From contig OX422205.1 in the NCBI GenBank assembly GCA_949130485.1, positions 3,268,415 to 3,332,414 on the forward strand: DNA of 64,000 nucleotides, written 5' to 3'. The translations under genes were made by a program, and so were the position numbers. Below the pieces are notes generated by a model that worked only from the letters and a program-made list of their open reading frames with translations, ran no database searches and was not told the DNA's origin. The stretch is from Agelas oroides. Lineage: Eukaryota; Porifera; Demospongiae; Agelasida; Agelasidae. Shown piece after piece: positions 11,472 to 64,000 of the stretch. Numbering within the stretch: position 1 is the stretch's first letter; each line of letters opens with the position of its first letter.

Positions 11472-11639
11472 AGACTGATTTTCAACATCACTATTATGGT
11501 AGTTACTTTAATGCATTTGACATTAGTTTTAAAAGCACAGCAACTTGTGACCAGGTCTAGCACATTTCATCATGTTGCGTGAGTGTGTACATATTTTGGT
11601 AACAACTTGCCAGCTGTGATTAAACATATCATCCTGTTA
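11472..11639. other. Intergenic between the LINE and the minisatellite
   Basis: AT-rich, no coding signal. It may include the 5' UTR of the minus-strand LINE. Confidence 0.3.
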
Positions 11640-17900: not shown

Positions 17901-18407
17901 CCTCAGTGCTATCGGAAGAATGAGTTAGAGAAGAAGAGGGCATATGAAGAACGTGTGCGGGAAATAGAACACGGCTCCTTCTCCCCATTGGTTTTTTCAG
18001 CCGCAGGAGGCATGGGCACCATTGCAACTGTTGTGTATAAGAGGCTGGCCTCTCTCTTGGCCGAGAAACAAGGAAGACCATACAGCTCGACATTGCACTG
18101 GCTAAGATGCAGACTGAACTTTTCTTTGCTGAGATCAGCCATAATGTGCATTCGGGGCTCCCGATCTATCTTCTCCCGAGACTCTACATCCCCACCCATG
18201 GAGTCCATTGACCTGGCCCTTCATGAAGGCCAGGTGCCAGCATTTTAAACCTTATGAACATCCTTTATAACTACATGCATCACTTTCTTTATTTTTAAAC
18301 CCTTATCGCCACTAAATTTTTATCTCTCATTTTGTGCCTGTACACGTTCACTATTTCATCCTGTTATTACACATTTCGTGGAAAAAAAAAAAAAAAAAAA
18401 AAAAAAA
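14747..18407 (+). mobile_element. RLE-type LINE with poly(A) tail and 11-12-bp TSD
   Basis: The element is bounded by (A)ACTATATGGCA at 14735-14746 and 18407/18408-18418, a target-site duplication. It ends in a run of about 26 A (18382-18407). Between these lie the captured exon piece (14744-14943), about 65 bp of leader, the intact ORF (15009-18248) and a short AT-rich 3' UTR with no obvious AATAAA. A perfect tail, TSD and ORF mark a very recent insertion. Insertion does not look site-specific: the target is AT-rich unique DNA. Confidence 0.9.
15009..18248 (+). CDS. LINE polyprotein: CXC-type zinc finger, reverse transcriptase, restriction-like endonuclease
   Basis: 1079 residues, intact. 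Residues 10-42 are a cysteine cluster, CCRCNASGRCKNCSCRKAG.. C..C, like a tesmin/CXC DNA-binding motif. The reverse transcriptase spans ~380-640: PGVRPIGIGE, ILVDAKNAFNTLNR (~481), TTQGDPLAMAMY, and IWFADDATAG (~567) with the catalytic FADD. The C-terminus has a CCHC-like finger (CVCGHHFTIEHALSC, ~862-877), then RHNEIRN (~884), GARLDI (~928) and FFDVRVFNP (~946). This is the restriction-like endonuclease order of R2/NeSL/Hero-type LINEs. There is no APE domain. It resembles a group widespread in sponges and corals that I cannot place in a named clade with certainty. Confidence 0.88.
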   Translation: MLCCGMPVVCCRCNASGRCKNCSCRKAGRECLNCLPRRRGHCENSSPLASCAHGPTTTDTSLNEPDYSNPQHSPTNPRGDMNMVDQTMVTSIPETQETRMPSQSETQLDLEQDIEDLPTFTPVPEPDFRWGEAKEGRSFACALNRVYDEIVQWKRNLFKVPSGNAGKAFVRELSRMFNAYAEGSALECVAMKAAMTMPALLLQKPSSRSKAREHALHLERRLKLWSDGKLDDLLHEGRTVQRQLTLRQQSQQKDDDRTARVFAKLMMEGKVRAALRLVTQANGSGPLPLNTTANPNDPTSTQTVRDILLEKHPPKQPPKKSTIAKPDTPVPEPHPVLFDEINSQMIRDTILRMDGAAGPSGLDAASWKRLCTSFKGASTDLCESLAATARRICTCYVDPRGLSSFVACHLIALDKCPGVRPIGIGETVRRIIGRATARVLSDDIQAAAGPLQLCAGHQSGCESAVHAMRQVFESSETQAIILVDAKNAFNTLNRQAALRNIHHLCPSLSKILINTYREDVRLFIDGETLLSQEGTTQGDPLAMAMYAIAVNPLIHRLKCDTTKQIWFADDATAGGKLRNLREWWDCLTNAGPDYGYFPNASKTWLIVKEGYNDEAISTFEGTQVVITEEGKKYLGSAVGKQTFIERYVQQKVTTWVGELERLSSIAITQPHAAFAAFTHGLTSRWTYLARTTPNIENLIKPLEETIRKVFLPNLTGQNAFNDTERELLALPARLGGLGIFDPSKKSALHYSMCETISAPLVCLILDQSEAYAPEVKEAQTRMRNNARKFHRQCEARAANDLEENLPTKLQKALTICSEKGASSWLSALPISEHGFALHKGAFRDALCLRYGWRPSHLPSHCVCGHHFTIEHALSCSRGGFPSIRHNEIRNITADLLSGVCHGVGTEPSLQPVTGEQLEHRTANREDGARLDIVAQNFWGRDRQSAFFDVRVFNPYAPCYRSSTLPQCYRKNELEKKRAYEERVREIEHGSFSPLVFSAAGGMGTIATVVYKRLASLLAEKQGRPYSSTLHWLRCRLNFSLLRSAIMCIRGSRSIFSRDSTSPPMESIDLALHEGQVPAF

Positions 18408-21644: not shown

Positions 21645-21662
21645 GGATGACGTGGCATCAAG

Positions 21663-23285
21663 ATGGCGAACAGAAAGTCTCGTACAGCATCTCTCTCGCA
21701 ACCATCACCGAAAAGTCTACCGGGCTCTCCTGTCCGAATTCTTACCCGTAGCTGCTCCCAGAACAACTCACACGCTGCCCCACCCCTTGAGGCCGAACCC
21801 CTACCCTCCTCCTCACTCTCCACAGCAGCCCAGCCCCTCCCTACACCGCCACACCCGCCTGCACCCTTGCAAGCCACAGCTCCCCTCGTCGCGAATAATG
21901 CTCCCGAAGAACACCCTACTATTGCTAACAGTGAGTTGGCCAAACACTCGCAAGACGAAGATTGTACCTCTGGTGACTACGGCTGTAATAATTCAAATGT
22001 TAACTGCAAATGCGGCACTACCACTGATGACGGCTCCCAGATGGTCCAGTGCGAGACATGTGGTTCTTGGTCACACCTAAACTGCGCTGGACTCACTGCC
22101 CGTAGTGCAAAAAAGGCCACCTTCAAAAGCCATATCTGCAATCCCCCCACGCAGAAGAAGTCGACACAGCGTGCATCCAGCACAAAGACCAGCAAGTCAA
22201 CCAAGAAGTCTGGCTCCTCCCCCCCCACCACCACCCCTGCTGTTACCACATCCACTACCACTCCTGCTGCCACACCTGCACCCTCCAATACAGCACCAGG
22301 TGAGGGTAACTCTTCTTCAGTTACTACTCTGCATGATCACTGCCTGTGCTCAGTGGGTGGCTCCTGTGACATCTGCCGCACAGCACACCCAGTGGCTTTA
22401 GCCACTAAAGCTGAAGTAGACTCCTTCCTCCAACGGGTACTCGACCTAGAAGTCCGCCTAAAAACAGAAAACAAATCCTTGCGCTTGCAGGTCCTGGCCT
22501 TAGAGGAACGAACTGACCATCTGGAAAACGAAATTGCTATGCTGAGGTCAAACACAAGTACTAAAGCAAAATCTGCCAGTACTAACAACAAAGGCCGTTA
22601 TAAGGGAGCCCCACCAAAAAGCAGCCTCCCCCTCCCAGCCAAATCCCTCCCCCACAGTGCAATCCCGCTCCCAACTCAAATAGGAAATCCCACCTCCAAT
22701 TCTCAGGCTACTGTACATGCTGTAACTAAACCCACCTCCTCACCAAAGTCCTTCCGTATTGTCTGGGGTACCCAGTGGCGATGCACACCTGAAGAGCTGC
22801 TTAGGGCTATTTCCCCCATGCTACCCAATGAAGACTACAAGGATGTAGCTGTCAAAAAGTCCTATAGACGATCAAATGGGAAAGGTAAATGGTGGTTTAC
22901 CATTATCGCCCCACCCAGCACCTTGTCTATCATTGAAGCAGCTTGGCCTGCTCTACAAGCTAAGTCACGCTGGACGTTACAAAGCTCTCTACGTAAGCAC
23001 CGCCCCCTCCCCTCCCATCTACCCTCTCCTTCCAATGCTACTACCCCAAATTCCATACCACCTCCCCCAATTACACTCTCACTCCCAGATTCTGATAATT
23101 ACCCTACCCATCCTCACGCATCATCATCACCTACCAGCACTCACCGCCCCCCTTCTAGTTCTCGTGATGAGAGTAATCCACCCCCACACTCACCACCTGA
23201 CTCAACACCATTGGTTCCCTCTGCCCCTTTTTTAGAGGGAACACCTACACTCCTTGGAGGGCCCCCTCTGGGGCCTGTCCCCTAG
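21663..23285 (+). CDS. LINE ORF1 protein with PHD finger and coiled coil
   Basis: 540 residues, intact. Residues 1-110 are Pro/Ser-rich. Residues ~115-160 form a PHD-type finger (CKCGTTTDDGSQMVQCETCG, WSHLNCAG). A Ser/Thr/Pro linker follows, then a small Cys cluster (CLCSVGGSCDICRTAHP, ~220). A leucine-rich coiled coil lies at ~245-290 (VLDLEVRLKTENKSLRLQV). A conserved C-terminal block ~350-420 (FRIVWGTQWRCTPEELLRAI) may be the nucleic-acid-binding domain. The tail is proline-rich. It would package the LINE RNA with ORF2. The start at 21663 lies 18 bp from the putative element 5' end. Confidence 0.8.
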   Translation: MANRKSRTASLSQPSPKSLPGSPVRILTRSCSQNNSHAAPPLEAEPLPSSSLSTAAQPLPTPPHPPAPLQATAPLVANNAPEEHPTIANSELAKHSQDEDCTSGDYGCNNSNVNCKCGTTTDDGSQMVQCETCGSWSHLNCAGLTARSAKKATFKSHICNPPTQKKSTQRASSTKTSKSTKKSGSSPPTTTPAVTTSTTTPAATPAPSNTAPGEGNSSSVTTLHDHCLCSVGGSCDICRTAHPVALATKAEVDSFLQRVLDLEVRLKTENKSLRLQVLALEERTDHLENEIAMLRSNTSTKAKSASTNNKGRYKGAPPKSSLPLPAKSLPHSAIPLPTQIGNPTSNSQATVHAVTKPTSSPKSFRIVWGTQWRCTPEELLRAISPMLPNEDYKDVAVKKSYRRSNGKGKWWFTIIAPPSTLSIIEAAWPALQAKSRWTLQSSLRKHRPLPSHLPSPSNATTPNSIPPPPITLSLPDSDNYPTHPHASSSPTSTHRPPSSSRDESNPPPHSPPDSTPLVPSAPFLEGTPTLLGGPPLGPVP

Positions 23286-23332
23286 GAGTAGCCCCACTGC
23301 ATCCCCCCCGTGCCCCTGCTAATAAGATACCC

Positions 23333-26300
23333 TTGACATCCTCCACAGGCACGGGGTCCCAACATCTTAGAGTAGGATGTCTTAACGTCAGAGGCTTAAA
23401 AGCCAACACTTACTATACCCACCAGCTCCTCAACCAACACGACATTTTTGCCATCTCCGAGCACTGGCTCCAGCCCTACGAATTGCAATCTCTTCAAGCT
23501 CTCCACCCTGACTTCAATTTCTTATCTTCTGCCCCTCCCGCAGAAGAGGATGACCTCTACTGCAGGCCTAGACATCTTCGAGGTCATGGAGGAGTAGCAA
23601 TCGCATGGAGAAAATCGCTTGACCACCACATCAGCAAGCTTGACAACTCCTCCTCTCATCGAGTGGTCGGCATTTCACTCCAAGCCCAACCTCCACCCAT
23701 TTGTCTGCTTTCTGTCTACCTTCCAACTCGCACAGGCTGCACTGACGTTTTTAAAGAATCCCTCGACTACCTAGACTCCATGATTAATTTGTTCAGCTTT
23801 GACAATGATGTGTTTATCCTTGGTGATATAAACGCAGACCTTGGACTGGGCGGAGGCCCAATGGCCTCTACTCCTATCAATGAACAGGGTAAAATCTTAA
23901 TGCAGTACCTAAAAAGATTGAACTTTCTATCTGCTCACCTACATCTCAGCCCTACCCCTGCAACCTCCACCTATGAGAGTGAAGCCCATGGCTCCATATC
24001 AACAATTGATCATATTCTTTGCCCATCTCACGTACTCCCATCTCTCTCATCTTGCCATGTCATCGAGGAGGAACCATCTAACAACTCTGACCATCTTCCG
24101 ATAACCTGCCAGATAAGTACTCACCTTCCCAACTCCCCTACCCATCACAAAAAATCCAGTCCCCCACCCCGTCCCAACTGGAGGAAGCTCACAACGCATG
24201 ATTTGATGAGATCTTATACATCCCCACTAGAAGCTAGCCTATCCCACCTACCCCTTCCGTCACTGTCAGATTACTCTTCCAACCCCCATCTCATTGACAG
24301 AACCCTCTCCCACTTAATCTCCCTAATGAAGTCTACAGCTGACACAAACATCCCCTCAAAGCGTTTCTTTCCCCACCAAACACCTGAGTGGGATGATGAG
24401 CTTAAGCTGGCCCAAAAGACCGCTAACAATGCACACAAGACCTGGAGAAATGCCGGAAAAACTAGAAATCCTGATCACCCTCTTCGAATTATCTATAAGG
24501 AATCCAAACGGAAATTTAGAGCCAAACTCAGAAACCACCGTAAAAATCTAAGGGAACTTTTCTTCTCGAAATTAGACCTGGCCAATACAGATTCCCGTAA
24601 ACTCTTTAGAGAAATCAGGAACATCAATGGCCACTCACCTGAACCCTCCCGAGTCATCTCATTTAATGGCACCACCTTTCAAGGAGATGCCCTCCTCGAG
24701 GGATGGACCTCCTACTTCGAACAACTCGGTGTCCCCTCTCCCCATAGCACATACGACTCTGATTTCCAGCAATCCATCAATGAAGAGTACCTGGCCCTTC
24801 TTGATACTACAGCAGGGAATGAAATACCCATCACAGTGGATGAAGTCAAGGAAGCCATTCAAGGCCTTAAACCTCACAAGGCCTCGGGCCCAGATGGAAT
24901 TGACCCTGAGCACATCATTCACTCTGGCCCTCTGGCATGCAACCTCCTCACCGATCTCTTCAATGCCATAGTCACCACTGGCCATATCCCTACAGTCTTC
25001 CAACTCGGTTACATTACGCCAATACCTAAAGACCCGAAAAAAGACCAGACTGATCCATCCAACTACCGTGGAATTTCCCTCCTCTCTAACATCTCCAAAC
25101 TCTTCGAAAAAGTCATCCTTGCCAAACTCCAATCCCCCGCCCTCTCCCTAAATCCACTACAGGGTGGCTTCCGCTCTGGCTACAGTCCCATCCATACTGC
25201 CTTTGTCCTGCAAGAAGCCATCCAATCAATCAGGGAAAGTGGTAAGAAGGCATATGTAGCATTGTTAGATGTCAAGAAAGCCTTCGACACAGTCTGGCAC
25301 CAAGGACTGTTCGTCAAACTGCACCACAAAGGCATCCCAACCCGGATCTGGCATATCCTAAACAACTGGTACACCTCCTCCTCTTGCTCTGTACTTCAAT
25401 GTGGCGATCACTCCAGATCATTCCCAATCCTACAGGGTGTCCGCCAGGGAGCAATTCTATCCCCATTGTTATACTCTATCTTTGTGGACGACCTCTTAAA
25501 CACTCTTGACCACTCCGGTCTCGGAGCGAGGATTGGAGAAGTCTTCTGCGGTGCCCCAATGTACGCTGACGATCTAGCACTGGTGGCCAGCTCCCCTGAA
25601 GAACTACAAGCAATGCTAGATATTGTCTCACACTACGCCTCCCAGTGGCGCTACCGTCCAAACTCCTCCAAATCCGTGATCCTTGTATTTGGTGAATCAC
25701 CCCGCTCCAGGCCCTCGCAAGATCCAATAGGCAATGGCTACTAGCAGGCCAGCAACTGCAAGAGGTTGATGAGCACCACCACCTTGGAATCCTACGCTCA
25801 GTTCACTACTCCACCTTGGCTCGGACTTCTGAGCGTTGTGCCGCTGGCCGGAGTGCCTTCTTTGCCCTGAATGCAGTCGGCTCCAGATTTGGCTGCTTAC
25901 ATCCTGTCACCTCCCACAGACTTTACTCCACACTCTCTCTTCCCATCATGCTGTATGGATGTGAACTATGGTCTATATCTAAAACTGAATCACTTATGCT
26001 GGAACGCGTCCACCGGAAGATCCTAAGGACCATTCAAGGCCTCCCTGTCAGATGCCCTAGTGTAGCTCTAACTAGTCTCCTAGGCTCCAGGGACATATCT
26101 TCGTTCATATCACAGCAACAACTCACCTTCATCAACTCCATCGCATCCATGTCCACTACTGACCTTCCCAGACTGATCCTTGAACAACGGTTGACTAACC
26201 CATTGCTCTCTGGGATCATCCCCCTATGGCAACAACTATTGGACAATCTCCACCTTCCATCCCTTGAACAGCTTATCTCCACCCCAAGGGGCAAAGTCTC

Positions 26301-26837
26301 TTGGAAAAACTCCAACAAAAGGCTGCTAAATATCAATCACTACATCGCCCTCACTGAAGAGTGTCCAAACTATCCGATTGGCTACTGCGACCTCCCCCTC
26401 GGTAAACCCTCCCACCATTGGTCCTCCACCCTGCACGATCGACAAGCCACCATCAGAACCAACTTTCGTCTTAGAATGCTGGTTGGCTGCGATGGCCTGG
26501 AGGCTGACGCCTCGAGGTTCCGACGCAGGATGAATAGCACAGCACAGCCCCTGGCAACTCCACCTGCAAGCTGTGTCTCACTGCACCTGAGGACCCCGCC
26601 CACTTCATCTTGCGCTGCCCCTCCCTCTCCACTCGCCGCCGTGAATTACTCTCAGATGCACCCTCCCACGTTAAATCGCTACTCCCTGATATCAACCTGG
26701 ACCCGGACCACTTTGTCGACGTCATGCTCGGTTGTGTATGGATTAAGGACCACGCAACACAGGTGTACATTGTGGACTTTCTAAACCAACTCCGTGCACA
26801 CCGGAACGCACTACTACTCCAACCCGGCCCTACATAG
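23333..26837 (+). pseudogene. LINE ORF2: APE endonuclease and reverse transcriptase, two frameshifts
   Basis: The first segment (23333-25744) has the APE endonuclease (LRVGCLNVRGLKAN, ~11; FILGDINADLG, ~163; NSDHLPITC, ~251) and the reverse transcriptase (ALLDVKKAFDTVWH, ~642; GVRQGAILSPLLYSI, ~702; MYADDLALV, ~743). Near 25710 the frame shifts by one base; the continuing protein (HLGILRSVHYS, then 25816-26540) is the RT thumb region. A second shift near 26545 leads to CKLCLTAPEDPAHFILRCP (26560-26620), a CCHC-type zinc knuckle typical of LINE C-termini, and then to the stop at 26837. Otherwise the copy is well preserved. Confidence 0.85.
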
Positions 26838-50121: not shown

Positions 50122-51110
50122 CTAGGCTGGAGACTGGAGTTTCGAAAATTTCCCCGGCGCGTGGCGTATGACCTGCCAGACAGGAATGGATGAAAGGATT
50201 TCTACAAAAATGCCTCCCTCTCTCATGAATTCATCAAAAGTTTTCATTCAATACATACCTCATATCACTTTGTTATTGTTCACTCACAGTTTGTCTTCAA
50301 GATGCCTTACTCTACCAAGGGATCACTGGAGCTGCTCACCTACCCTCAAGAGCACAAGGATATATCCCAACTGAGCTGTATTCAGCAGGAGTACCTCTGA
50401 TTGCGGAGAGAGTATTTTCCCTCTTGAACACCACTGACCTGTGTAGCTGTCTGCAAGTCTGTACAACATGGAACTGTCAGGTCTCCTCTGCTCCCAAACT
50501 CATGGACAAAGTCTCTGCCTACCGCAAGAAGTGCAATGAGAATGCTGATCATGTGTCAAAGAAGCAGATGGAGCTCACTGTGTTTCCCACTCAGAGGCAG
50601 CCACTTGCTACCTTCTCCCCTAACACCTTGACACAAATCCAGACCAAAAAGACGTGTTCAGCTGCTGTTCCATTCAAGTGCATCAAGCCTGTCTGGCATG
50701 AGAGTGGGTGTAGTGGGAGAGTGAGTCCCAGCAAGAGACCAAGACAGTCTGATGACATCTGCTGCACCAAGAAGAGCAAGAAGAGGTTGCGCAGGCTGTG
50801 AACTTTGATATCAAGAAGCAAGCTACAAAATGTGGTTGAAGTGCAATTGACATTAGTGCAGTAGATCTGTACCACGAGGGTGCAGCTGAAGACTGCAGTT
50901 GAGATGATGACAGAGAGCGCATAGACAGATCTCACAGAGAGCTAGAACTCTCCTACCTTTTGTATATATAACTATACCTTATTGGCTTGTAATCTTGCTG
51001 CTTACAGATTTGTACATAACTATATTTTCTGGATCACCATGGAAGTGGCCCTAAATATTTATCTGAAGTATAATAGACCATGCATGATATACATATCAAC
51101 ATGTATAGTA
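50122..51110 (+). repeat. F-box cluster unit, copy A
   Basis: Homologous to 56680-57700 and 63010-64000, with the same upstream segment (TTTCGAAAATTTCCCCGGCG), gene and 3' flank (GATCTGTACCACGAG..GTGCAGC). It stands alone, 2.6 kb before the tandemly duplicated part. Confidence 0.85.
50303..50801 (+). pseudogene. F-box / LRRL-tail gene copy A, frameshifted
   Basis: Same gene as the intact copies, but a two-base insertion (GGATATATCCC in place of GGATATCCC, about 50361) breaks the frame after 20 codons. A second lesion removes six bases near 50543 (in-frame loss in the KENAENHH segment). From 50424 the frame is open to the same C-terminus (KKSKKRLRRL). A truncated protein from an internal Met is possible. 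Confidence 0.85.
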
Positions 51111-53745
51111 GTTTACAACTAATGTGCTAAATTTCCTCATAATGATTCCAGGCAAATTACACAGCAATTTCAATCTGGGTACTATATGCCCACTCCCATT
51201 TTTTCTTGCTTGAACTGCAAGTAAATTTTCTGGCAACCACAAAGTGAAAACCCAACCTCCAAATTTTGAATTTACACCAGGTGCACAAAGAGCTCACTTG
51301 TGTGTTGAACAATCGCACACTAATACTTCAGCTTCTAGCATGTATTTCAGGTGAACACTGACATTGTTTTGCATGGCTGAAGGTTTAAAGTATGGGTGGT
51401 GCCAGGGCATAATGATGTATGTAATGCAATTTAGCACCTTAGTTTTGCCAAATCCTTTCTGGAGTGTATGACTTTTATAGTTGTTATTCAAACTGTCGTT
51501 GGCATGGGTGAGATTAGTGATACTCTGGCTTTTCAGCCTTTGTCAATCTATTTTGTTTTTTGTTTCATTCACTTCTGAATGTAGTGATCTTTGTTATGTC
51601 CAAATCAGTGCTGCAGGAGTGAAGATGCTCTCTACATTTTGAAGATTACCGAAGCTGGTGTACGTAGTTGATTGCAAAATATCACCACTCTTACTACTCT
51701 GGTTTAGACGTAACAAATCTAGCTGTACCCAACACTAGAAGTTTTGTCCTGAATTGCTCAGCTTGACTTACACCCATGTCACAAAATTCAGTTCACAAAG
51801 ATATCTATGATTGACAAGTACCAGACTATGTACCCTTAGTACAGAGTGAGCTATCATAACTAATCAAATAGACTAATAAAGTGAATAGTTACACAGACTC
51901 CAACAAAAGGACAACTGGTTTGATTTTACAAACCTGGATTTTTATATATTTGGTACACCTGCAAGTTATGTTAACAACTGCACATAGAGATATCCCGTGT
52001 CCACGTTATAATGGTAGTCTTACCAGCCAGACTCTCACAGGGGGAGAGTCTGGTCTGTGGGTCTAACATACAAGTAATCTTGTTATGCTTAATTCCCTTA
52101 ACTGAAATGTTCTGTACTTGCATGCACTAATATTAAAGTAAATGAAGGAAGTAAGCATAAAATCAGTATGGAAAAGTAGTCAGGATGAAGGTGCACTTTT
52201 GTGGAAAAGTAGTCAGGAAGGAAGGTGTGACAGCTGTGGAGAGGAAGTGCACTGCACAGATCAGAGCTATAGCTTTCCATCAGAAAATAATTTTGTATAC
52301 AGACAACTGGCTGAGAGTCTAGTGAAAACATGCACAAGATAAATTGTCGCACATGAATGCATTGCTAGTACATCTGAGGAAACTCACTGTGTACAGTCAG
52401 CTGTAAGCAAGCTATGTATGCACTCAACTACCCATGGAATGCCCATCTTCAATGTAGTGGGGACAGGAAAATTCTCATGTATACATTTTATGACAAAACT
52501 TCATGGAACTATGTGATCCTAACTATATGACATAGAGAGTTCCATACAGGCACCTAAGTGCATCCAACCTCTTCTGCATATACCTGGAGATGGGGCTGTG
52601 ACAGATGTGAAACAACAAAGACAATACAGCTTTAACTCTAGGCAGTTTGCACAGCAACTTCCGAGAACTTTGGATCCAGGCTGTTCACCTTATGTGGTAT
52701 GGCCACCTGGTGGTGGTTATCCATGATGTTACAACATTGTGCATGAACAATCAAAGAACCACATCTCCCGGTGCTGTTGTATTAACATGGCATGAAAACC
52801 GAGCATGAACACAGAGTATACTCTCACAAAACTCACTGGTTGCATTGCCCTGAGCAAGTGCAGAAAGTGGTTAAATGGATTCTGCCATGTAAACAATGAT
52901 CTGGCCACCTAGTAAAGTCCATCGCTTCTAGTGATGAAAACTTGTCTATAGTCCAACCAACTGGGTAGCATGGAGAAGTCTCTTTCTCCTGCAGTTAATG
53001 CTGGAAAGGTACAAGTATTGACATTTCAGCTACATTATCACTGATGGTAGATGAGTAAAAAGGCAAAGGCATATCTTGGGCTACATCACATGACCTTAAT
53101 TGGAGCAAAAAAATTGTGGTGATACACACATGGGGTGCTGGCCAGGAGTTTAAGAGAAGGTTGCAGCGGGCTCACCTTACGAATGGCTGATATTTCACAA
53201 ACAATACAACAGTTGACACATTATTTCCAAATGTGCCATTCCTACTGTTGACAGCTACACCTATCACAGAAATATTGACAATGTAAGCCTCATACATATA
53301 TAGGCCTACAACACAAGAGAGAAACTATTCAATACTCTGACAGTGCATCATAGAGAAATAATATATGCTGTTGGCGGTGAAGCACAAATATATTTATAAT
53401 ACTGACTTTGTTGCTGATGTGTGTCCAATTCTTTGTGGCAAAGTTTCAAGTTTGGGAATGGATCCCACAGTAGACAAAAGTTAGTGGCGATTGGAAATGT
53501 CTAAATTTATAATGCTGCAACACAAAAATTTGGGGCTTGGAATTGATGAGAGTGATACATAGTTGACAGGCCACAAGAAATGGAGTACAAGAGACTTAGG
53601 TGGATTTAGGAGACTAGTGATTGCAGGCAGGGTTAGACTGTCTTTTTCCATGATTTGGAGCATACAGACACATGGAAAATAAATTGAACCCTCCAGCCTC
53701 GTACCCAGGCTGAATATCTTATTTTAAACAAAAGAGCAAGCCTGT
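51111..53745. other. Mostly unique AT-rich DNA with one repeat fragment
   Basis: 51290-51740 is related to the foldback element of 18489-19845 (GAACAATCGCACAC, AAAGTATGGGTGGTGCC, TTTAGCACCTTAGTTTTGCC). No gene was recognised in the rest. Short frames (for example 52142-52342) lack features. Confidence 0.45.
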
Positions 53746-53973
53746 GTACGAGAGTAAGCCAAGAGAACTTTACATTGTAAAGAATGTTCTGTTGTCTATT
53801 CATAAAATAATTACACCCGTCTAGCACAGTAAAAGCACTGTTTTGCTGTACACACGGAACAGGAGAGTTACTGAGTTGAAGCTGTTGACACTTCCACTCA
53901 CAGGAAAGTAATTATACTGACCACTAGTCTCATCAAAGTACTACAGAGTATAAACTCTAGTTTTCTATAAGTA

Positions 53974-54330
53974 TTATCTGATGGGTGGTCCAGGCACATC
54001 TTCTTCCTGTTCATTCTCAAATGATACAGTGAGATCAACATACTGCTGGGTTGGTCCTGGCTTCAAGAGATTTAGCACACTGTGAAAATGTGGACCATAA
54101 AGTTGCAGGAGTGTGGGTTGAAGACATCATGAACATTAGCCCAACACACTGTAACAATACCACTATGACAGAAGCTATACAAAATAGCAGCACTTGAGGT
54201 GAGAAAATTTTCATAACATTGTGTGAAACAATGATTTCATGGTTTTACATGCATCCACAACAATTTTTAACTGCTCCAAGGTGTAAGAGCCTCTTTCACA
54301 ACCACTGAATCCAACAAAAATTGGGGGGTT
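53974..54330 (-). pseudogene. Minus-strand gene fragment in module X, copy 1
   Basis: The C-terminal frame reads LQLYGPHFHSVLNLLKPGPT, VDLTVSFENEQEEDVPGPP and a stop at 53974. Upstream, RFCHSGIVT..CWANVHDVF lies in another frame because four bases (TTTC) are missing compared with copy 2 (near 54122). Protein-like, family unknown. Confidence 0.4.
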
Positions 54331-54529
54331 GCATGCTACAACCACATAACCATACACATTTCATATTTTCATGCTCTTGGTTTGCAAAGTTTTTCTTGAT
54401 TAGCAAGTAACTTACTTTCTCAGTTGAAAGTGATGGGTCATCACAACATCTGTGTTGATCCTATACCACCAACAGCTACCCCGATCCATTTAAGCGGACT
54501 TCCTCAACTGAGAAACCTGTCATCTCTTA

Positions 54530-54665
54530 CATGCATTTCCCAGCCAGAGGAGGAGTCAGTGCACAACTCTCCACACAGGATTACAGAATGGACCCTGTGC
54601 TTAGAGCCATGCTGGAGGAGTTTGATAAGGGATATGAGCTACTAAAAAGGAGGAAATGGAGCTAC
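54530..54665 (+). CDS. Possible small 3' exon in module X, copy 1
   Basis: After a TTTCCCAG acceptor-like site the plus strand has frames open to stops at ~54645 and ~54666. One reads MDPVLRAMLEEFDKGYELL then KRRKWSYS. The copy at 58620-58690 keeps it with a single Lys-to-Arg change, which would fit selection, but the sample is too small to judge. Confidence 0.3.
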
Positions 54666-55546
54666 AGCTAACATCATTGATCTTGGAATCATTATTGGAA
54701 TGTGTCAACATGCCACTTACTTTATTCATCAGGAATTATAGCTAATCACCACTGTAGTGTAAGGTTGTTTTCATACAAGTAGTTTGTAAATTGCATGCAA
54801 AAATATATACGGAGTACATGGTATAATGTACATCAATAACAATTGCATCAAACTAGATTCTGACTTTGTAACTTGTAAAACTTGTTCAGTCCATAACTTG
54901 AACAAATCAATGTCATACTATAGCTAGGACAAGCCACTTTTGACAAACCAAATTAAGGTGCTGTTTTATAGATGTATAAGTGTGTGCATTAAATTCCTTA
55001 CATGAGTGGCTCCTGCATAAAAAATAAATCTGTTACCTACTTAAACTGGGTGTTGCAACTGGTATGCAGTAACTTACATTTCTTTTCTGCATGTACATAT
55101 GCCCAATCAATGGCAGCTCAGACTACCTCTTCACCTTTCAGAACAATAATGCATGCAGACCTATCTAAAGTGTTACAGCCACACTTTTTCCTTCTCTCTA
55201 TATAGGTAAAAGAGCCTTTGCAGACAATAAAGAAACTTCATAGAGTTGTAAAGTTATTGTAGTGTTGCTTTCAATAAATTTTTGCCTTGCAAAAGTTGTT
55301 TGCAGAAGTACAGATCTGTATGGAGAAAATAACAGCAAATTCTGATAGATAACATACCTATAGTACAGACAGAAATCCAAATGAGAGCTCAGACAGCTCC
55401 AGTTCTCTATGAAGATTGATTTGTCTATGCACTTGCTGTCATCTTCTCAAGTGCAGTCTTCAACTGCATTCTTGTAGCACAGATCTGCTGCACTAGTCTG
55501 AACTGCACTTCAGCCAGGCTGGTAGCTTGCTGCTTGATCACAAAGT

Positions 55547-56062
55547 TCACAGCCTGCACAACCTCTTCTTGCTCTTCTTGATGCAACAGATATCATCAGA
55601 CAGTCTTGATCTCTTGCTAGGACTCACTCTACCGCTGCACCCACTCTCATGCCAGACAGGCTTGATGCACTTGAATGGAACAGCAGCTGAACATGTCTTT
55701 TTGGTCTGGATTTGTGTCATGGTGTTAGGGGTGAAGGTAGCAAGTGGCTGCCTCTGAATGGGAAACACAACGAATTCTATTTCCTTCTTAGACACATGAT
55801 GGTTTTCAGCATTCTCTTTGCACTTCTTGTGGTAGGCAGAAACTTTGTTAATGAATTTGGGAGGAGAGGACACTTGATAGTTCCATGTTGTACAGACTTG
55901 CAGACAGCTAATCCTGTCAGCATGCAGGGTTCAAGAGGGAGAAGATTCTCTCTGCAATCTAGGGCACTCCTGCTGAGTACAGCTCAGTTGGGATGTCCTT
56001 GTGCTGTGGAGGCCAAGTGCAGGTGATCATCTCCAGTGAACCCTTGGTAGAATAAGGCATCT
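55547..56062 (-). pseudogene. F-box / LRRL-tail gene copy B, nonsense mutation
   Basis: Minus-strand homologue of copies C and E. It starts MPYSTKGSLEM..., reads PTELYSAGVP, then a TAG (about 55961) where the intact copies have a Leu codon. A small rearrangement follows in the F-box core (near 55915). The C-terminal part from 55873 is open and ends KKSKKRLCRL, so the LRRL tail has also changed to LCRL. Confidence 0.85.
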
Positions 56063-56864
56063 TCAAGACAAACTGTGAGTGAACAATAGCAAGGTGGCAG
56101 GAGGTATGAATGTGATAAATCCACGAGAGAGGGGCTCCATTGTAGCAATTGTAACGTCCATTTTGTCTGAGAGGCCATGCGCCATGCGCCAGGAGAGGTT
56201 TTGAAACTCCAGCCTAGACAGACCCGAGATTAGAGTTGTATTCCAATCCACCAATCACATTTCAGCGCGCCAATTGCCTTTGGCGGCCCCGGCGGCTCAG
56301 TCACGAAGGTCGAGACAGAGCGAGACCGACATGTAGTAGCAGGCCAAAACTTGTCCAAGTTCGTGTAGCTAGTCTTTCTCTTAGTATTCAGAGGGGTGTG
56401 CTGGAGGATGACCTCTCTATTTTCCTACTCTTTTATGAACCTTTGTACCATGCGAGAGAGAGAGTCCTTTCTCCTGGCAGGTGAGCTTACACTTTCCTAA
56501 TCAAGCTATGTGGAAGAACACACCAAAACAGACAAGCATTCCTTATGGACTTTTTCTTGAGTATGAAATCAAGACAGACAAGCTTCGCAAAACGACAACA
56601 GGCCGCACGGGGGGCGCACGAGGGCCGCAAGGCGGCGCTTCGCACGCTGCAATCTGATTGGTCAATTACAACTCCTACACCGTCTAGGCAGGAGCCTGGA
56701 GTTTCGAAAATTTCCCCTGGCGCGTGGCGTATGACCTGCCAGACAGGAATGAATGAAAGGATTTCTACAAAAATGCCTCCCTCTCTCATGAATTCATCAA
56801 AAGTTTTCATTCAATACATACCTCATATCACTTTGTTATTGTTCACTCACAGTTTGTCTTCAAG
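56063..56864. promoter_or_regulatory. Divergent intergenic region between F-box copies B and C
   Basis: The two genes are head to head, so this 800-bp, GC-richer segment probably holds both promoters. Each gene side has GTTTCGAAA..TTCC/CTCC and a CATGCGCC or GGCGCGTGG block. The middle holds a CCAATCA box (56255) and another CTGATTGGTCAATT (56653-56667, two CCAAT-type elements on the minus strand), a TGGCGGCCCCGGCGGC GC-box, and a small open frame (LRTLQSDW...) conserved in copy E. No TATA box is clear. Confidence 0.6.
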
Positions 56865-57368
56865 ATGCCTTACTCTACCAAGGGATCACTGGAGCTGCTC
56901 ACCTACCCTCAAGAGCACAAGGATATCCCAACTGAGCTGTATTCAGCAGGAGTGCCTCTGATTGCGGAGAGAGTATTTTCCCTCTTGAACACCACTGACC
57001 TGTGTAGCTGTCTGCAAGTCTGTACAACATGGAACTGTCAGGTCTCCTCTGCTCCCAAACTCATGGACAAAGTCTCTGCCTACCGCAAGAAGTGCAAGGA
57101 GAATGCTGAAAACCATCATGTGTCAAAAAAGCAGATGGAGCTCATTGTGTTTCCCACTCAGAGGCAGCCACTTGCTACCTTCTCCCCTAACACCTTGACA
57201 CAAATCCAGACCGAAAAGACGTGTTCAGGTGCTGTTCCATTCAAGTGCATCAAGCCTGTCTGGCATGAGAGTGGGTGTAGTGGGAGAGTGAGTCCCAGCA
57301 AGAGACCAAGACAGTCTGATGACATCTGCTGCACCAAGAAGAGCAAGAAGAGGTTGCGCAGGCTGTGA
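56865..57368 (+). CDS. F-box protein with C-terminal LRRL tail (Emi-like), copy C, intact
   Basis: 167 residues, single exon. Residues ~22-62 form an F-box-like motif: IPTELYSAGVPLIAERVFSL, LNTTDLCSCLQVC, TTWNC. A basic helix follows (KVSAYRKKCKENAENHH), a Ser/Thr/Pro linker (~90-115), a Cys-bearing segment (KTCSGAVPFKCIKPVWHESG), and a basic tail ending KKSKKRLRRL. An F-box plus LRRL C-terminus is the arrangement of Emi1/Emi2 (FBXO5/FBXO43), where the tail blocks the APC/C. The zinc-binding region of Emi proteins is not evident; at most a few Cys/His remain. The start follows TTTGTCTTCAAG and is the same in all copies. A link to cell-cycle control is inference. Confidence 0.65.
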   Translation: MPYSTKGSLELLTYPQEHKDIPTELYSAGVPLIAERVFSLLNTTDLCSCLQVCTTWNCQVSSAPKLMDKVSAYRKKCKENAENHHVSKKQMELIVFPTQRQPLATFSPNTLTQIQTEKTCSGAVPFKCIKPVWHESGCSGRVSPSKRPRQSDDICCTKKSKKRLRRL

Positions 57369-57704
57369 ACTTTGATATCAAGAAGCAAGCTACAAAATGT
57401 GGTTGAAGTGCAGTTGACACTTGTTGAGTAGATCTGTACCACGAGAGTGCAGCTGAAGACTGCAGTTGAGATGATGACAGCGAGTACATAGACAGATCTC
57501 ACAGAGAGCTAGAACTCTCCTACCTTTTATATATATAACTGTACCTCATTGGCTTGTACTCTATACTGCTTACAGATTTGTACTTAACTATATATTTTAT
57601 GGATCAGCATGGAAGTGCCCCAAAATATTGAGCTTCATTGCCTGAAGTATAATAGACCATGATATACATATCAACATGTATAGTAGTTTGCCACAACTAA
57701 TGTG

Positions 57705-57800
57705 CTGAACAATCGCATATTAAAGCTTCAGCTTCAAGCATGTATTTCAGGTGAATCACACTGACATTGTTTGCATGGCTGAAGGTTTAAAGTATGGGTG
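57705..57800 (+). repeat. Fragment related to the 1.36-kb foldback element
   Basis: GAACAATCGCATATTAAAGC and AAAGTATGGGTGGTGCC match 18580-18680 and 51305-51400. It ends at the boundary between the two segmental duplication units, so it may have taken part in the recombination. Confidence 0.65.
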
Positions 57801-58029
57801 GTGCCTGCATAGTGAGTAAGCCAAGAAAACTTTACATTGTAAAGAATGTTCTGTTGTCTATTCATAAAATAATTACACCCGTCTAGCACAGTAAAAGCAC
57901 TGTTTTGCTGTACACACGGAACAGGAGAGTTACTGAGTTGAAGCTGTTGACACTTCCACTCACAGCAAAGTAATTATACTGACCACTAGTCTCATCAAAG
58001 TACTACAGAGTATAAACTCTAGTTTTCTA

Positions 58030-58319
58030 TAAGTATTATCTGATGGGTGGTCCAGGCACATCTTCGTCTCAAATGATACAGTGACATCAACATACTGCTG
58101 GTTTGGTCATGGCTTCAAGAGATTTATCATACTGTGAAAATGTGGACCATAAAGTTGCAGGAGTATGGGTTGAAGAAAGACATCATGAACATTAGCCCAA
58201 CACATTGTAATGATACCACTATGACAGAATCTATACAAAATAGCAGCACTTGAGGTCAGAAAACTTTCATGACATTTCATGGTTTTACATTCATCCACAA
58301 CATTTTTTAACTGCTCCAA
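58030..58319 (-). pseudogene. Minus-strand gene fragment in module X, copy 2
   Basis: The frame is longer here (MEQLKNVVDECK to FHSMINLLKP, stop near 58109) because the TTTC lost in copy 1 is present. A TGA replaces the Gly codon after LLKP, and part of the acidic tail is deleted. The two copies are broken in different ways. Confidence 0.4.
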
Positions 58320-59487
58320 GCTCTTTCACAGTCACTGAATCCAACAAAAATTGGGGGGGTTGCATGCTACAACCACATAACCATACACATTTCATATTTT
58401 CATGCTCTTGGTTTGCAAAGTTTTTCTTGATTGGCAAGTAACTTACTTTCTCAGTTGAAAGTGATGGGTCATCACAACATCTGTGTTGATCCTGTACCAC
58501 CAACAGCTACCCCGATCCATTTAAGCGGACTTCCTCAACTGAGAAACCTGTAATCTCTTACATGCATTTCCCAGCCAGAGGAGGAGTCAGTGCACAACTC
58601 TCCACACAGGATTACAGAATGGACCCTGTGCTTAGAGCCATGCTGGAGGAGTTTGATAAGGGATATGAGCTACTAAGAAGGAGGAAATGGAGCTACAGCT
58701 AACATCATTGATCTTGGAATCATTATTGGAATGTGTCATATGCCACTTACTTTATTCATCAGGAATTATAGCTAATCACCACGTTAGTGTAAGGTTGTTT
58801 TCATACAAGTAGTTTGTAAATTGCATGCATAAATATATACTGAGTACATGGTAAAATGTACATCAATAACAATTGCTTCAAACTAGATTCTGACTTTGTA
58901 ACTTGTAAAACTTGTTCAGTCCATAACTTGAACAAATCAATGTCACACTGTAGCTAGGACAAGCCACTTTTAACAACCCAAATTATGGTGCTGTTTTATA
59001 GATGTATAAGTGTGTGCATTAAAATCCTTACATGCATGTACATATGCCCAATCAATGGCAGCTCAGACTACCTCTTCACCTTTCAGAACAATAATGCATG
59101 CAGACCTATCTAAAGTGTTACAGCCACACTTTTTCCTTCTCTCTATATAGGTAAAAGAACCTTTGCAGACAATAAAGAAACTTCATAGAGTTATAAAGTT
59201 ATTGTAGAGTTATTTTCAGCAAATTTTTGCCTTGCAAAAGTTGTTTGCAGAAGTACAGATATGGAGAAAATAACAGCAAATTCTGATAGATAACATACCT
59301 ATAGCACAGACAGAAATCCAAATGAGTGCTCATACAGCTCTAGTTCTCTATGAAGATTGATTTGTCTATGCACTTGCTGTCATCTCCTCAAGTGCAGTCT
59401 TCAACTGCATTCGTGTAGCACAGATCTGCTGCACTAGTCTTAACTGCACTTCAGCCAAGCTGGTAGCTTGCTGCTTGATATCAAAGT

Positions 59488-60001
59488 TCACAGCCTTCGC
59501 AACCTCTTCTTGCTCTTCTTGGTGCAACAGATGTCATCAGACTGTCTTGATTTCTTGCTAGGACTCACTCTCCCACTGCACTCATTCTCGTGCCAGACAG
59601 GCTTGATGCACTTGAATGGAACAGAAGCTGAACACGTCTTTTTGGTCTGGATTTGTGTCAAGGTGTTAGGGGAGAAGGTAGCAAGTGGCTGCCTCTGAAT
59701 GGGAAACACAACGAATTCTGTTTGCTTCTTTAGACACATGATGGTTTTCTGCATTCTCTTTGCACTTCTTGTGGTAGGCAGAATCTTTGTTAATGAATTT
59801 GGGAGGAGAGGACACTTGATAGTTCCATGTTGTACAGACTTGCAGACAGCTAATCATGTCAACATGCAGGGTTCAAGAGGGAGAAGATTCTCTCTGCAAT
59901 CAAGGGCACTCCTGCTGAGTACAGCTCAGTTGGGATGTCCTTGTGCTGTGGAGGACAAGTGCAGGTGATCATCTCCAGTGAACCCTTAGTAGAATAAGGC
60001 A
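59488..60001 (-). pseudogene. F-box / LRRL-tail gene copy D, broken
   Basis: The tandem partner of copy B. Here the first stop of copy B is absent (CCC TTG reads Pro-Leu), but the same rearranged stretch in the F-box core gives a TGA near 59856. The downstream frame is open and ends KKSKKRLRRL. The rearrangement is therefore older than the duplication, and copy B's extra stop is younger. Confidence 0.85.
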
Positions 60002-60225
60002 TATTCAAGACAAACTGTGATTGAACAATAGCAAGGTGGCAGGAGGTATGAATGTGATAAATCCACGAGAGAGGGGCACCTTTGTAGCAATTCTGACGTC
60101 CATTTTGTCTGAGAGGCCATGCGCCATGCGCCAGGAGAGATTTCGAAACTCCAGCCTAGACAGACCCGAGAGTAGAGTTGTATTCCAATCCACCAATCAC
60201 ATTTCAGCGCGCGAATTGCCTCTGG

Positions 60226-61517
60226 TAGCGTGTCCAAAGAAAAAACAAAATTTTGCAATCAAAAAAAGTTATTAATACAGGCTTAAAGAGCAGCCTGAGA
60301 GCAATTGAACGATATGCAGATTGCATGGGTTACTTATATTTTACCCCAAGATATGGGTTTCCGAAGTCAAATGGTACCGTACCCACTTTTTACAACAAAA
60401 TTCAATGGAGAGGGTTGTACCGCGCAACATCATCTAAAGATCAAGTACATACAACACCTCATCCAGCTTTAAATTTTCTGGAGATGTAAATCAGTCCTGT
60501 GCTATGACATCATAGCCTTTTTTGGAGCACAACAGCTCACAGCAATGGTACCAGTGCATATTATGGTAGATGTTTAAAGTTTGTTTCTTTCAAGAGCTGT
60601 CTATGGGGATGACTCTGATGATGAAAATGACGTTTGTTTTGGCTAATGAGTCTAAGTGTAGCTACCAGTGAGTCCCCAAACCTGCAGACAGGAGTCACCA
60701 ACATGCATGGTCATCATAATCTGCACCTTAGTGCCTTGAGTCTCTAGGAAGGGCAGTACGGCTTGTCCACTATTCCCTTCAACCCAATCACTGGTCATTC
60801 ACCATCACATTCTTGTTTGCGAATCTCTTAATAGTCCATCTTCTTTCCAACTGCAAACACTCCCTTCTCTCCTTCATCATTCTGTGGGCCCACTTTATCT
60901 CCCAGCAGCTACAGTTGTGGATTTCATACACTCTTTAGCTCTATTATACATGAACAGACTCGTTGCCACACACACAAGCCTATGCAGATCGTAGGTCAGC
61001 ACACAGCCTCCACCACTCAGGTATCAGGAGTGGAATGTTTATTTCTGAGATCAGCTGAGGTCCTTTGGTAATCCGAATGGGAATAAAGTAAGTTTCAGCA
61101 GAAAATGAACTATACTGGAGTGACACTCGCTTGCAATGTTCTGAGCTTTTTGCTGGTTACCACAGCAGTGTGACTGTTTTCACGGCAAATACAACCCAAA
61201 AAATTGATATCTGCACCCCAAGAAACCTATTTCCCATGGTAAAAGTTGCATATACCTTAGAAGTCCAGTGAAATTTGTAAAAAGCGGCTAAAACACCAAA
61301 AATAAAAGCTAGAATTTTTAAAAAATGATTGTTCTTACCAGCAGAATTGAAAAGAAGAACGAAAGCGCTTCAATTTGATGTGCTATTGGCCGAAATTTCG
61401 ACTGTGGGTGCGGGTTTTTGTAAGACACACACAACGCTGCCGCATTCAATATAGCACTTCCGCTCCAAAAAGGGTTACGCAATTTTTCACTGTTATGAAT
61501 ATCATTTGGACTCGCTA
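60226..61517. mobile_element. 1.29-kb TIR element with 7-bp TSD CCTCTGG
   Basis: The ends TAGCGTGTCCAAA and TTTGGACTCGCTA form short TIRs. CCTCTGG flanks both sides (60219-60225 and 61518-61524). The empty site is seen in unit 1 at 56272-56280 (GCCTTTGGCGG). The interior is AT-rich with no transposase frame. TSD length is near the 8 bp of hAT elements, but the family is uncertain. Confidence 0.8.
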
Positions 61518-61524
61518 CCTCTGG

Positions 61525-61677
61525 CGGCCCCGGCGGCACAGTTACGAAGGTACAGAGCGAGTCCGACATGTAGTAGCAGGCCAAAACTTGTCCAAGTTCG
61601 AGTAGCTAGTCTTTCTCTTAGTATTCAGAGGGGTGTGCTGGAGGATGACCTCTCTATTTTCCTACTCTTTTATGAAC
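61525..61677 (+). promoter_or_regulatory. Middle of the D-E divergent region
   Basis: Homologous to 56281-56440 (GGCGGCCCCGGCGG, GTAGCAGGCCAAAACTTG, CTTAGTATTCAGAGGGGTG). It is isolated between the two inserted elements. Its promoter role is inferred from position. Confidence 0.45.
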
Positions 61678-61754
61678 AATGAGTGTACAGAAACGGCCAT
61701 TCCGGATTTGTGCAATGGGTGGGGGGAGATTGCCAAGTCACACTGAAACTTTCT

Positions 61755-61900
61755 TGAATTGCCACCTTTGTTGAATGTCCACTTTTTGTTGAATTGTCAG
61801 TTTTGTTGAATTGCCAGTTTTGTTGAATTGCCAGTTTTGTTGAATTGCCAGTTTTGTTGAATTGCCAGTGTTGTTGAATTGCCAGTGTTGTTGAATTTCT
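61755..61900 (-). repeat. 17-bp tandem repeat, left arm
   Basis: About eight units of TTGTTGAATTGCCAGTT, most of them identical. Inverted relative to the right arm. Confidence 0.9.
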
Positions 61901-62397
61901 TATGTTTGCTGGCAGCCTCCACGCCCACACACTAGTGTATGCAGCCCCACCTCCTGGGCACTGGTGATATGATGTCATGAAACTTCGCATGTGCTAATCT
62001 TCTTGTCATCTGCACGGTAATGTCATGAAACTTGGCAAAAGTTGTAGGTCAGCCCTTCGGCGGCAAACAGAATCTAATCATTTATTTTAGAACAAACTAC
62101 AAACTCATGCAAGCACGCTGGAGATCAGTTGCTTTTCTTTTAGTTTGAGCTACTTGCCATCTCTTTTAACGGTAAACAGCTTGTAGGGGTTGTCACTGGT
62201 CATTTTCTTCCCAAACTCTGTACTACGAGCAAGCTTTCTGAAATATATATTTACTAAACATCATGATTATTGGTTCTCCTTACCGCCAAGGACCAGTGCA
62301 GATGACAAGAAGATTAGCATGTGCAAAGCTTTATGACATCACCAGTCCCCAGGAGGTGGGGCTGCATGCACTAGTCTATGGGTGTAGAGGCTGCCAA

Positions 62398-62690
62398 CAA
62401 AAATTGGAAATTCAACAAAACTGGCAATTCAACAAAACGTGGACATTCAACAAAAGTGGCAATTCAACAAAACGTGGACATTCAACAAAAGTGGCAATTC
62501 AACAAAACGTGGACATTCAACAAAGGTGGAAATTCAACAAAAGTGGCAATTCAACAAAACGTGGACATTCAACAAAACGTGGACATTCAACAAAGGTGGA
62601 AATTCAACAAAAGTGGCAATTCAACAAAACGTGGACATTCAACAAAATGGGGAAGTCAAAGTGGAAGTTCAACAAAACTGGAAATTCAAA
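62398..62690 (+). repeat. 17/18-bp tandem repeat, right arm
   Basis: About sixteen units alternating AAAAGTGGCAATTCAAC (17 bp) and AAAACGTGGACATTCAAC (18 bp). They make higher-order blocks and keep all three frames open, but there is no protein gene. Confidence 0.9.
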
Positions 62691-62774
62691 AAAGTTTCGG
62701 TGTGTCCTTCTGGCAATCTCCCCCCACCCATTCTATAAATCTGGAATGGCCGTTTCTGTACACTCATTATGAAC

Positions 62775-63192
62775 CTTTGTACCATGCGAGATAGAGAGTC
62801 CTTTCTCCGGCAGATGAGCTTACACTTTCCTAATCAAGCTATGTACCAAAACAGACAAGCCTTCCTTATGGACTTTATTCCTGAGTATGAAATCAAGGCA
62901 GACAAGCTTCGCAAAACAAGACGACAACAGGCCGCACAGGGGGCGCACGAGGGCCGCAAGGCGGCGCTTCGCACGCTACAATCTGATTGGTCAATTAGAA
63001 CTCCTACACCGTCTAGGCTGGAGCCTGGAGTTTCGAAAATTTCCCCGGCGTGTGGCCTTTGACCTGCCAGACAGGAATGGATGAAAGGATTTCTACAAAA
63101 ATGCCTCCCTCTCTCATGAATTCATCAAAAGTTTTCATTCAATACATACCTCATATCACTTTGTTATTGTTCACTCACAGTTTGTCTTCAAG
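62775..63192 (+). promoter_or_regulatory. Upstream region of F-box copy E
   Basis: Matches 56457-56864. Contains CTGATTGGTCAATT (62980-62993) with two CCAAT-type sites, and the TTTCGAAAATTTCCCCGG block (63034). An open frame (62769-63062, LRTLQSDW..) covers it; most of that frame is preserved in copy C, but with frame changes, so it is probably not coding. Confidence 0.5.
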
Positions 63193-63696
63193 ATGCCTTA
63201 CTCTACCAAGGGATCACTGGAGCTGCTCACTTACCCTCAAGAACACAAGGATATCCCAACTGAGCTGTATTCAGCAGGAGTGCCTCTGATTGCGGAGAGA
63301 GTATTTTCCCTCTTGAACACCACTGACCTGTGTAGCTGTCTGCAAGTCTGTACAACATGGAACTGTCAGGTCTCCTCTGCTCCCAAACTCATGGACAAAG
63401 TCTCTGCCTACCGCAAGAAGTGCAAGGGGAATGCTGAAAACCATCATGTGTCAAAGAAGCAGATGGAGCTCATTGTGTTTCCCACTCAGAGGCAGCCACT
63501 TGCTACCTTCTCCCCTAACACCTTGACACAAATCCAGACCAAAAAGACGTGTTCAGGTGCTGTTCCATTCAAGTGCATCAAGCCTGTCTGGCATGAGAGT
63601 GGGTGTAGTGGGAGAGTGAGTCCCAGCAAGAGATCAAGACAGTCTGATGACATCTGCTGCACCAAGAAGAGCAAGAAGAGGTTGCGCAGGCTGTGA
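63193..63696 (+). CDS. F-box protein with C-terminal LRRL tail (Emi-like), copy E, intact
   Basis: 167 residues. It differs from copy C at only three residues (Gly for Glu in KCKGNAEN, Lys for Glu in QTKKTC, Ser for Pro in SKRSRQ). F-box region, Cys segment and KKSKKRLRRL end are unchanged. Its upstream divergent region is intact near the gene but split from copy D by two transposons. The near identity with copy C means either a recent duplication or gene conversion. Function as discussed for copy C. Confidence 0.65.
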   Translation: MPYSTKGSLELLTYPQEHKDIPTELYSAGVPLIAERVFSLLNTTDLCSCLQVCTTWNCQVSSAPKLMDKVSAYRKKCKGNAENHHVSKKQMELIVFPTQRQPLATFSPNTLTQIQTKKTCSGAVPFKCIKPVWHESGCSGRVSPSKRSRQSDDICCTKKSKKRLRRL

Positions 63697-64000
63697 ACTT
63701 TGAGATCAAGAAGCAAGCTACAAAATGTGGTTGAAGTGCAGTTGACATTAGTGCAGTAGATCTGTACCACGAGGGTGCAGCTGAAGACTGCAGTTGAGAT
63801 GATGACAGCGAGTGCATAGACAGATCTCACAGAGAGCTATAGAACTCTCCTACCTTTTGTATATATAACTGTACCTCATTGGCTTGTAATCTATACTGCT
63901 TACAGATTTGTACATAACTATATTTTATGGATCAGCATGGAAGTGCCCCAAAATATTGAGCTTCATTGCCTGAAGTATAATAGACCATGATATACATATC
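63697..64000 (+). other. 3' flank of F-box copy E
   Basis: Matches 57369-57680 and 50802-51090 almost base for base (GATCTGTACCACGAG, GAGCTATAGAACTCTCC, TATACATATC at the window end). Conserved across copies as part of the duplicated unit. Confidence 0.7.

Follow-up and report, generated by a model that had tools for sequence, protein, structure and literature searches.

A tandem family of zinc-less mini-Emi genes, probably retro-derived from the Emi gene of the same genome

The DNA analysed here is a window of 64,000 nucleotides (C23:3268415-3332414) from a genome of 259 Mb in 141 contigs. At its right-hand end it carries five copies of a short F-box gene, which we call mini-Emi; two copies are intact and three are broken by frameshifts. 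Reading frames and alignment confirm the earlier note on this DNA in that count, in the 167 codons of both intact copies and in their KKSKKRLRRL ending. The comparisons below support well the view that the mini-Emi genes are paralogues of Emi (FBXO5/FBXO43), an inhibitor of the anaphase-promoting complex/cyclosome (APC/C), and that they derive from the genome's own Emi gene. To the fuller reading, that these are retro-derived, zinc-less and amplified Emi paralogues whose products would dock on the APC/C as weak competitors, we assign an even chance.

The parent gene lies on contig C22 (1111145-1112042, minus strand; L039 4646-5543) and encodes 250 residues. As read from the genomic sequence, it has one intron of 145 bp with a GTGAGT donor and a CAG acceptor, located between DLC and R/SLQ. 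Its zinc region is complete (C-x2-C, C-x2-C, C-x2-C-x4-H-x4-C), scores 29.1 bits against IBR_1 (PF22191, cut-off 27) and is accompanied by the tail LHRL. In the PDB, the last exon matches FBXO43 (2rt9, E 1.6e-5) and FBXO5 (2m6n, E 0.002). A genome search with this exon returned 103 matches, among which only that at the C22 locus keeps high identity throughout the zinc region. Two weak matches extend into the region (C23:3417971-3418186 at 49% and C23:2735356-2735574 at 43%), but the copies concerned, 505 and 515 bp long, are too short to contain it. On the basis of this one search, the genome appears to hold a single zinc-bearing Emi locus.

Across the intron site of the parent the array copies read DLCSCLQ with the length unchanged, which amounts to an exact intron loss, although the parent offers a single intron by which a processed retrocopy can be scored. 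The copies also lack about 36 residues of the zinc region, where FKCIKPVWHESGC stands in place of the parental FCQHCFKPWHKGEC, and by eye they retain three of the eight zinc ligands. Parent and copies share the linker, a destruction-box (D-box)-like motif, the stretch GRVSP.KRPRQS and the tail. The earlier note's description of a minimal form without a zinc-binding region was thus borne out, the absence being a deletion relative to a zinc-bearing parent; its suggestion of a mimic was wrong, since intron loss at the exact splice site and the shared linker, D-box-like motif and tail identify a paralogue. Judged by what can be tested in sequence, mini-Emi qualifies as Emi in its F-box, D-box motif, tail and common descent and fails in the zinc region.

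Within the window, the intact genes are copy C (56865-57368, plus strand), whose protein has an F-box at about residues 33-63, the D-box-like RQPLATFSPN and the tail KKSKKRLRRL, and copy E (63193-63696, plus strand), of the same length and ending. Each is adjoined head-to-head by a minus-type pseudogene: copy B (55547-56060, minus strand), with 6-bp and 4-bp insertions and a stop at reference codon 32, adjoins C, and copy D (59488-60002, minus strand), with 6-, 4- and 1-bp insertions, adjoins E. Copy A (50302-50801, plus strand) is broken by a 2-bp insertion near its start and has a 6-bp in-frame deletion; from residue 20 on, it is still in frame from the F-box through the LRRL tail. The F-box noticed in the earlier note was examined by hidden Markov model search, in which both intact copies reached 27.7 bits against PF12937 (E 2.3e-6), whose cut-off is 24.3, and about 24 bits against PF00646 (E about 3e-5), whose cut-off is 20.5. 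The same Pfam scan of copies C and E gave no IBR match up to E 10 and no substrate-binding domain besides the F-box. All 17 loci that were checked, including one with an internal stop, end in SKKRLRRL.

Self-comparison of the window shows that the pairs are parts of larger repeat units. The unit with the B/C pair (53752-57672, plus strand, about 3.9 kb) is followed by that with the D/E pair (57814-64000, plus strand), to which it matches in pieces at 93.9-95.9% identity up to the window end. The D/E unit is longer by two stretches, at about 60226-61517 and 61678-62766. The second of these carries minisatellites (61678-62768) made of 17-bp and 35-bp units that are mutually inverted.

The main array occupies about 161 kb (C23:3318716-3480168); the window covers its start, and it extends about 148 kb past the window end. 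Searching the genome with the mini-Emi protein yielded 109 matches, well beyond what chance would give; single copies were often split over several matches, and merging on DNA left 57 copies or fragments. The family that the earlier note had described as multiplying is thus larger than it had stated. The 49 copies above 300 bp were aligned and the eight shorter ones dropped; copies on C23 at 3376047, 3422576, 3451555 and 3457305 (minus strand) and at 3457664 (plus strand) stand outside the merged and aligned counts. The 167-codon frame is intact in 15 of the 22 aligned plus-strand copies of the array and in none of its 19 aligned minus-strand copies; one more intact copy, the 16th, is encoded by the minus strand at C23:2738773-2739276. 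All 19 minus copies, and the copy at C23:2735062, share a 4-bp insertion after base 128, which implies that the minus partner had already been broken when the array began to expand. The copy on contig C18 nearest to the minus type has a 6-bp insertion, also found in 18 of the 19 minus copies, without the 4-bp one. By these sequence features, the minus copies are the older, head-to-head partner type. Further copies or fragments lie on C16, on C18 and on C23 near 2.71 and 2.74 Mb. On C18, minus-type and plus-type copies (typed by synonymous distance) again stand head-to-head, and on C16 shorter pieces have the same two orientations at two places.

Two protein searches in other assemblies found 63 and 29 relatives, together 84 distinct proteins. 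The zinc-region motif occurs in six of them (P0064-P0069), and in P0065-P0067 intron-like residues stand just before SLHVC/SLQVC, as expected if an intron sits there too. The zinc-less relatives are of three types. Type 1 is 69-98% identical to the window copy and type 2, which keeps a parent-like N-terminus, 56-60% (20 proteins of the two types were aligned); in type 3 (P0081, P0082, P0084) the zinc region is eroded rather than excised, which suggests a second route of its loss, as far as sequences tell. LRRL is present in 43 of the 84 relatives and terminal in 34; among the others are fragments, frameshifted pieces and LHRL parents. Filtering on length, F-box motif and a terminal RL left 44 proteins and removed 40; those kept end in LRRL (34), LHRL (8), LCRL (1) or SRRL (1), and five of them are zinc-bearing (four LHRL, one LRRL). 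The Emi-type tail that the earlier note had singled out is therefore retained among relatives as an RL tail, with LRRL in 34 of the 44. In P0005, P0013, P0019, P0068, P0081 and P0082 a 'W' follows the tail; our guess is that the gene caller translated a TGA stop as tryptophan.

The motif RxPLx5N occurs in 51 of the 84 relatives, fragments included. A profile of 19 sequences (6 zinc-bearing parents and 13 zinc-less proteins) matches FBXO5 (9gaw_S, E 3.6e-8) from F-box to tail and aligns RxPLA (RQPLATFSPN) with human RTPLASVQ, which starts at R322 as counted from the printed alignment. The relatives would accordingly have a pseudosubstrate D-box between the F-box and the place of the zinc region. 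In alignment A2, 14 of 19 members match the F-box, the others being mostly exon pieces; its invariant columns lie mostly in the tail, though rows without the F-box preclude invariance there. A quick tree of 47 rows, with the root placed on the parents, separates zinc-less from zinc-bearing proteins by one branch (Shimodaira–Hasegawa-like approximate likelihood-ratio test, SH-aLRT, 93), which is compatible with, and does not prove, one origin of the zinc-less proteins. P0001 represents 23 member sequences and P0004 36, suggesting amplification elsewhere too, although P0001 may be from the same species.

Between the consensus of the plus copies and that of the minus copies there are 22 changes at 107.8 synonymous sites and 22 at 393 non-synonymous sites, a ratio of 0.27 (0.30-0.44 with transition/transversion weights of 1-6, p 9e-5 to 0.006). 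Compared with the plus-type copy on C18, the plus consensus has 12 synonymous and 10 non-synonymous changes (ratio 0.25-0.37); with C16:440144, 17 and 17 (0.30-0.44); and with the minus-type copy on C18, 22 and 28 (0.38-0.57, p 0.0009-0.033). Close pairs give a less clear picture: with C23:2738773 there are 0.009 synonymous and 0.008 non-synonymous changes per site. Several partners in these comparisons are now broken, so that the ratios average constrained and free periods. Recent variants among the minus copies (32 synonymous, 90 non-synonymous, 7 stops) are neutral, with omega at 0.80-1.11. The pooled pairwise ratio is 0.45 for intact plus copies (bootstrap interval 0.21-0.97) and 0.69 for minus copies (0.46-1.07), and the intervals overlap. 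Constraint is clear on the older branches and weak among the newest copies. The earlier note's idea of fast protein evolution does not fit the older comparisons, and its concern that the ratio of non-synonymous to synonymous change (dN/dS) might lie near 1 is answered in part: older paralogue pairs lie away from 1, at about 0.25-0.57, whereas the newest copies are weakly constrained.

The DNA upstream of the copies has conserved features of its own. In the region before copy E (62980-63192, plus strand), ATTGG (a CCAAT box) stands at −207 and TTCGAA at −161; the two recur at about these positions in other copies, and in the parent ATTGG is found at −338 and TTTGAA at −238. Of the 21 plus copies with upstream DNA, 19 contain GGAGTTTCGAAA and 12 contain GATTGGTCAATT. 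When copy C is compared with the plus copy on C18, 11 of 199 sites differ in the last 200 bp before the ATG, against 71 of 194 in the preceding 200 bp and 34 of 169 in the 200 bp immediately downstream; the four other loci in the comparison differ at 54-62% of sites from −400 to −201, a stretch mostly not alignable. The conserved 200 bp may reflect constraint or the edge of a duplicated piece. We do not press TTCGAA as a site resembling the cell cycle genes homology region (CHR), since the optimal LIN54 motif excludes it (PMC4974476). As plain mRNA retroposition carries no promoter, it would not be the whole story if the promoter came along. The immediate upstream neighbour of the Emi parent, in the same orientation and about 0.8 kb from the parental ATG, is an HSP70-like frame (by eye; L039 6306-8609, minus strand); that read-through from this frame carried the promoter over is speculation.

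We propose the following history for the family. An Emi transcript would have been copied back into the genome without its intron, and deletion of the zinc-binding region would then have left a gene for F-box, D-box and LRRL tail. A duplication would next have made it a head-to-head pair, and this pair would have multiplied in tandem; in the array, the partner on the minus strand died. The starting point is one of several parts acting jointly, as Emi proteins are multi-part inhibitors (PMC8182066). In human EMI1, residues 322-330 form a D-box that blocks the D-box receptor (PMC11579458), while the zinc region hinders UBCH10 (UBE2C) at APC11 and LRRL competes with UBE2S (PMC11579458, PMC5717348, PMC6534075), for the inhibition of which the tail alone is enough (PMC8182066). 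By analogy with EMI1 and Emi2, the tail of mini-Emi would dock at the APC2/APC4 site and its D-box at the CDH1/APC10 site, with no block of UBE2C for want of the zinc region. A protein with F-box, D-box and tail should thus dock but inhibit UBE2C poorly. It would be a weak, dose-dependent competitor of UBE2S and full-length Emi, displacing both; it may be ubiquitinated itself, and its dose would be set by the many copies.

Mini-Emi resembles FBXO5/EMI1, FBXO43/EMI2 and Drosophila Rca1 (PMC6534075) in having the same F-box, RxPLA at the place of human EMI1 322-330 and the tail TKKSKK.LRRL; it differs from these APC/C inhibitors in lacking about 36 zinc-region residues, in being intronless, and in its short N-terminus and many tandem copies. 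The genome's own Emi gene differs from it in having one intron, a full zinc region, the tail LHRL and one locus found. UBE2S ends in the identical four residues LRRL (PMC11579458), but no UBC domain was found in mini-Emi, which would be a competitor at most and not an E2. A further parallel is the isolated C-terminal RL-tail peptide of Emi2, which has the tail without the zinc region: as peptide or mRNA it releases meiotic arrest, proposedly by displacing endogenous, full-length Emi2 (PMC12040968). In contrast, mini-Emi is a natural gene with an F-box and a D-box-like motif. Searches among open-licence papers for Emi duplication, retrogenes and sponge Emi, judged from their listings, showed nothing on a mini-Emi family.

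Several observations weigh against the competitor reading. The 167-residue protein searched alone against the PDB finds F-boxes of other proteins only (KDM2B at E 0.0029, then KDM2A, FBXW1A and FBXW11), FBXO5 being absent; the tie to FBXO5 runs via the parent and via the profile that includes parents. Its AlphaFold model is poor, with a mean predicted local distance difference test (pLDDT) of 55.9 and a predicted template-modelling (pTM) score of 0.20; helices are placed at 21-40, 43-62, 64-90 and 158-166 with low confidence. The upstream DNA may resemble that of the parent, but the numbers of 500 shuffles scoring as high are mixed (0 for copy E, 7 for C18, 13 for C16, 17 for copy C and 126 for copy D), suggestive in some copies and not in copy D. 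In one dispersed copy, C23:2711518, set against the plus consensus, per-site change is higher at non-synonymous (0.028) than at synonymous (0.018) sites. Recent plus variants (24 synonymous, 41 non-synonymous, 2 stops) give omega of 0.51-0.71 (weights 1-4, p 0.009-0.11), and 7 of the 22 aligned plus copies of the array are broken. These last figures would also suit a dying retrocopy family, once functional, whose near-identical tandem copies arose by unequal exchange and have no present role, as would the loss of frame in all 19 minus copies and, by length, in the C18 plus-type copy (496 bp), C16:440144 (508 bp) and C23:2711518 (505 bp). We regard such a family as doubtful but worth serious consideration, given that most plus copies of the array keep 167 codons while minus copies drift neutrally, the overlap of the pooled intervals tempering this contrast, and that long frames 56-89% identical exist in other assemblies.

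Unlikely, in our view, is an adaptor of an SCF (Skp1–Cul1–F-box) ligase, in which the F-box would recruit Skp1/Cul1, the tail would bring the APC/C or a bound protein, and F-box function rather than tail competition would be selected. Retention of an above-cut-off F-box, matched in most A2 members, does need a reason if only the C-terminal part of EMI1 is the expected actor in APC/C inhibition (PMC8182066), but no separate substrate-binding domain was found, and A2 is invariant mostly in the tail, with the caveat given above. A straightforward inhibitor like full-length Emi, for example an oocyte or embryo arrest factor, would explain the retained D-box-like motif and tail and the CCAAT box and CHR-like site upstream of parent and copies. 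The UBE2C-hindering zinc region is gone, however, its inactivation turns EMI1 from inhibitor into a D-box-dependent substrate (PMC8182066), and the TTCGAA of the copies falls outside the optimal LIN54 motif; from their sequences, we consider the copies quite improbable candidates for such a role. Hardly credible is a foreign or selfish Emi mimic, viral or transposon cargo. The scatter of copies over C16, C18 and distant parts of C23 and the non-LTR (long terminal repeat) retrotransposon-like long frames recognised by eye in the same window (8019-11507, minus; 14997-18248 and 21651-26784, plus) could be taken to favour it, yet the copies derive from an Emi gene of this very genome. Viral contigs, scanned once with alignment A1 by two short patterns, contained no relative; element ends were looked for within the scope of the window self-comparison.

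The window also holds a 503-codon open frame at 4383-5894 (plus strand), in which inspection by eye suggests a kinase-like stretch, HNDIRLENICFD. In the mitochondrial contig (22,436 bp, of which 20 kb were read), TGA encodes tryptophan, 22 tRNAs are predicted and cox1 is interrupted; recognised by eye were a protein resembling ATP9 and, in the stretch that splits cox1, a LAGLIDADG-like frame. These features presumably point to a demosponge. A COX1 match at C107:16176-16808 has no stops, unlike the TGA-using mitochondrial COX1, and may stem from a nuclear copy or from a contig of bacterial origin.

Going beyond the competitor reading, we tentatively raise the possibility of a dosage-amplified, natural 'decoy Emi' family in a sponge lineage, with tail and D-box but without the zinc region, that would oppose full-length Emi and UBE2S, and in which the zinc region was lost in more than one way, by deletion in two types and by erosion in that of P0081/P0084. 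The docking parts seem to have been kept, in many copies, after loss of the UBE2C-blocking part. Mini-Emi may thus represent an APC/C regulator with naturally separated functions in a probably early-branching animal, whose genome provides the intact parent and the broken sibling copies as controls.

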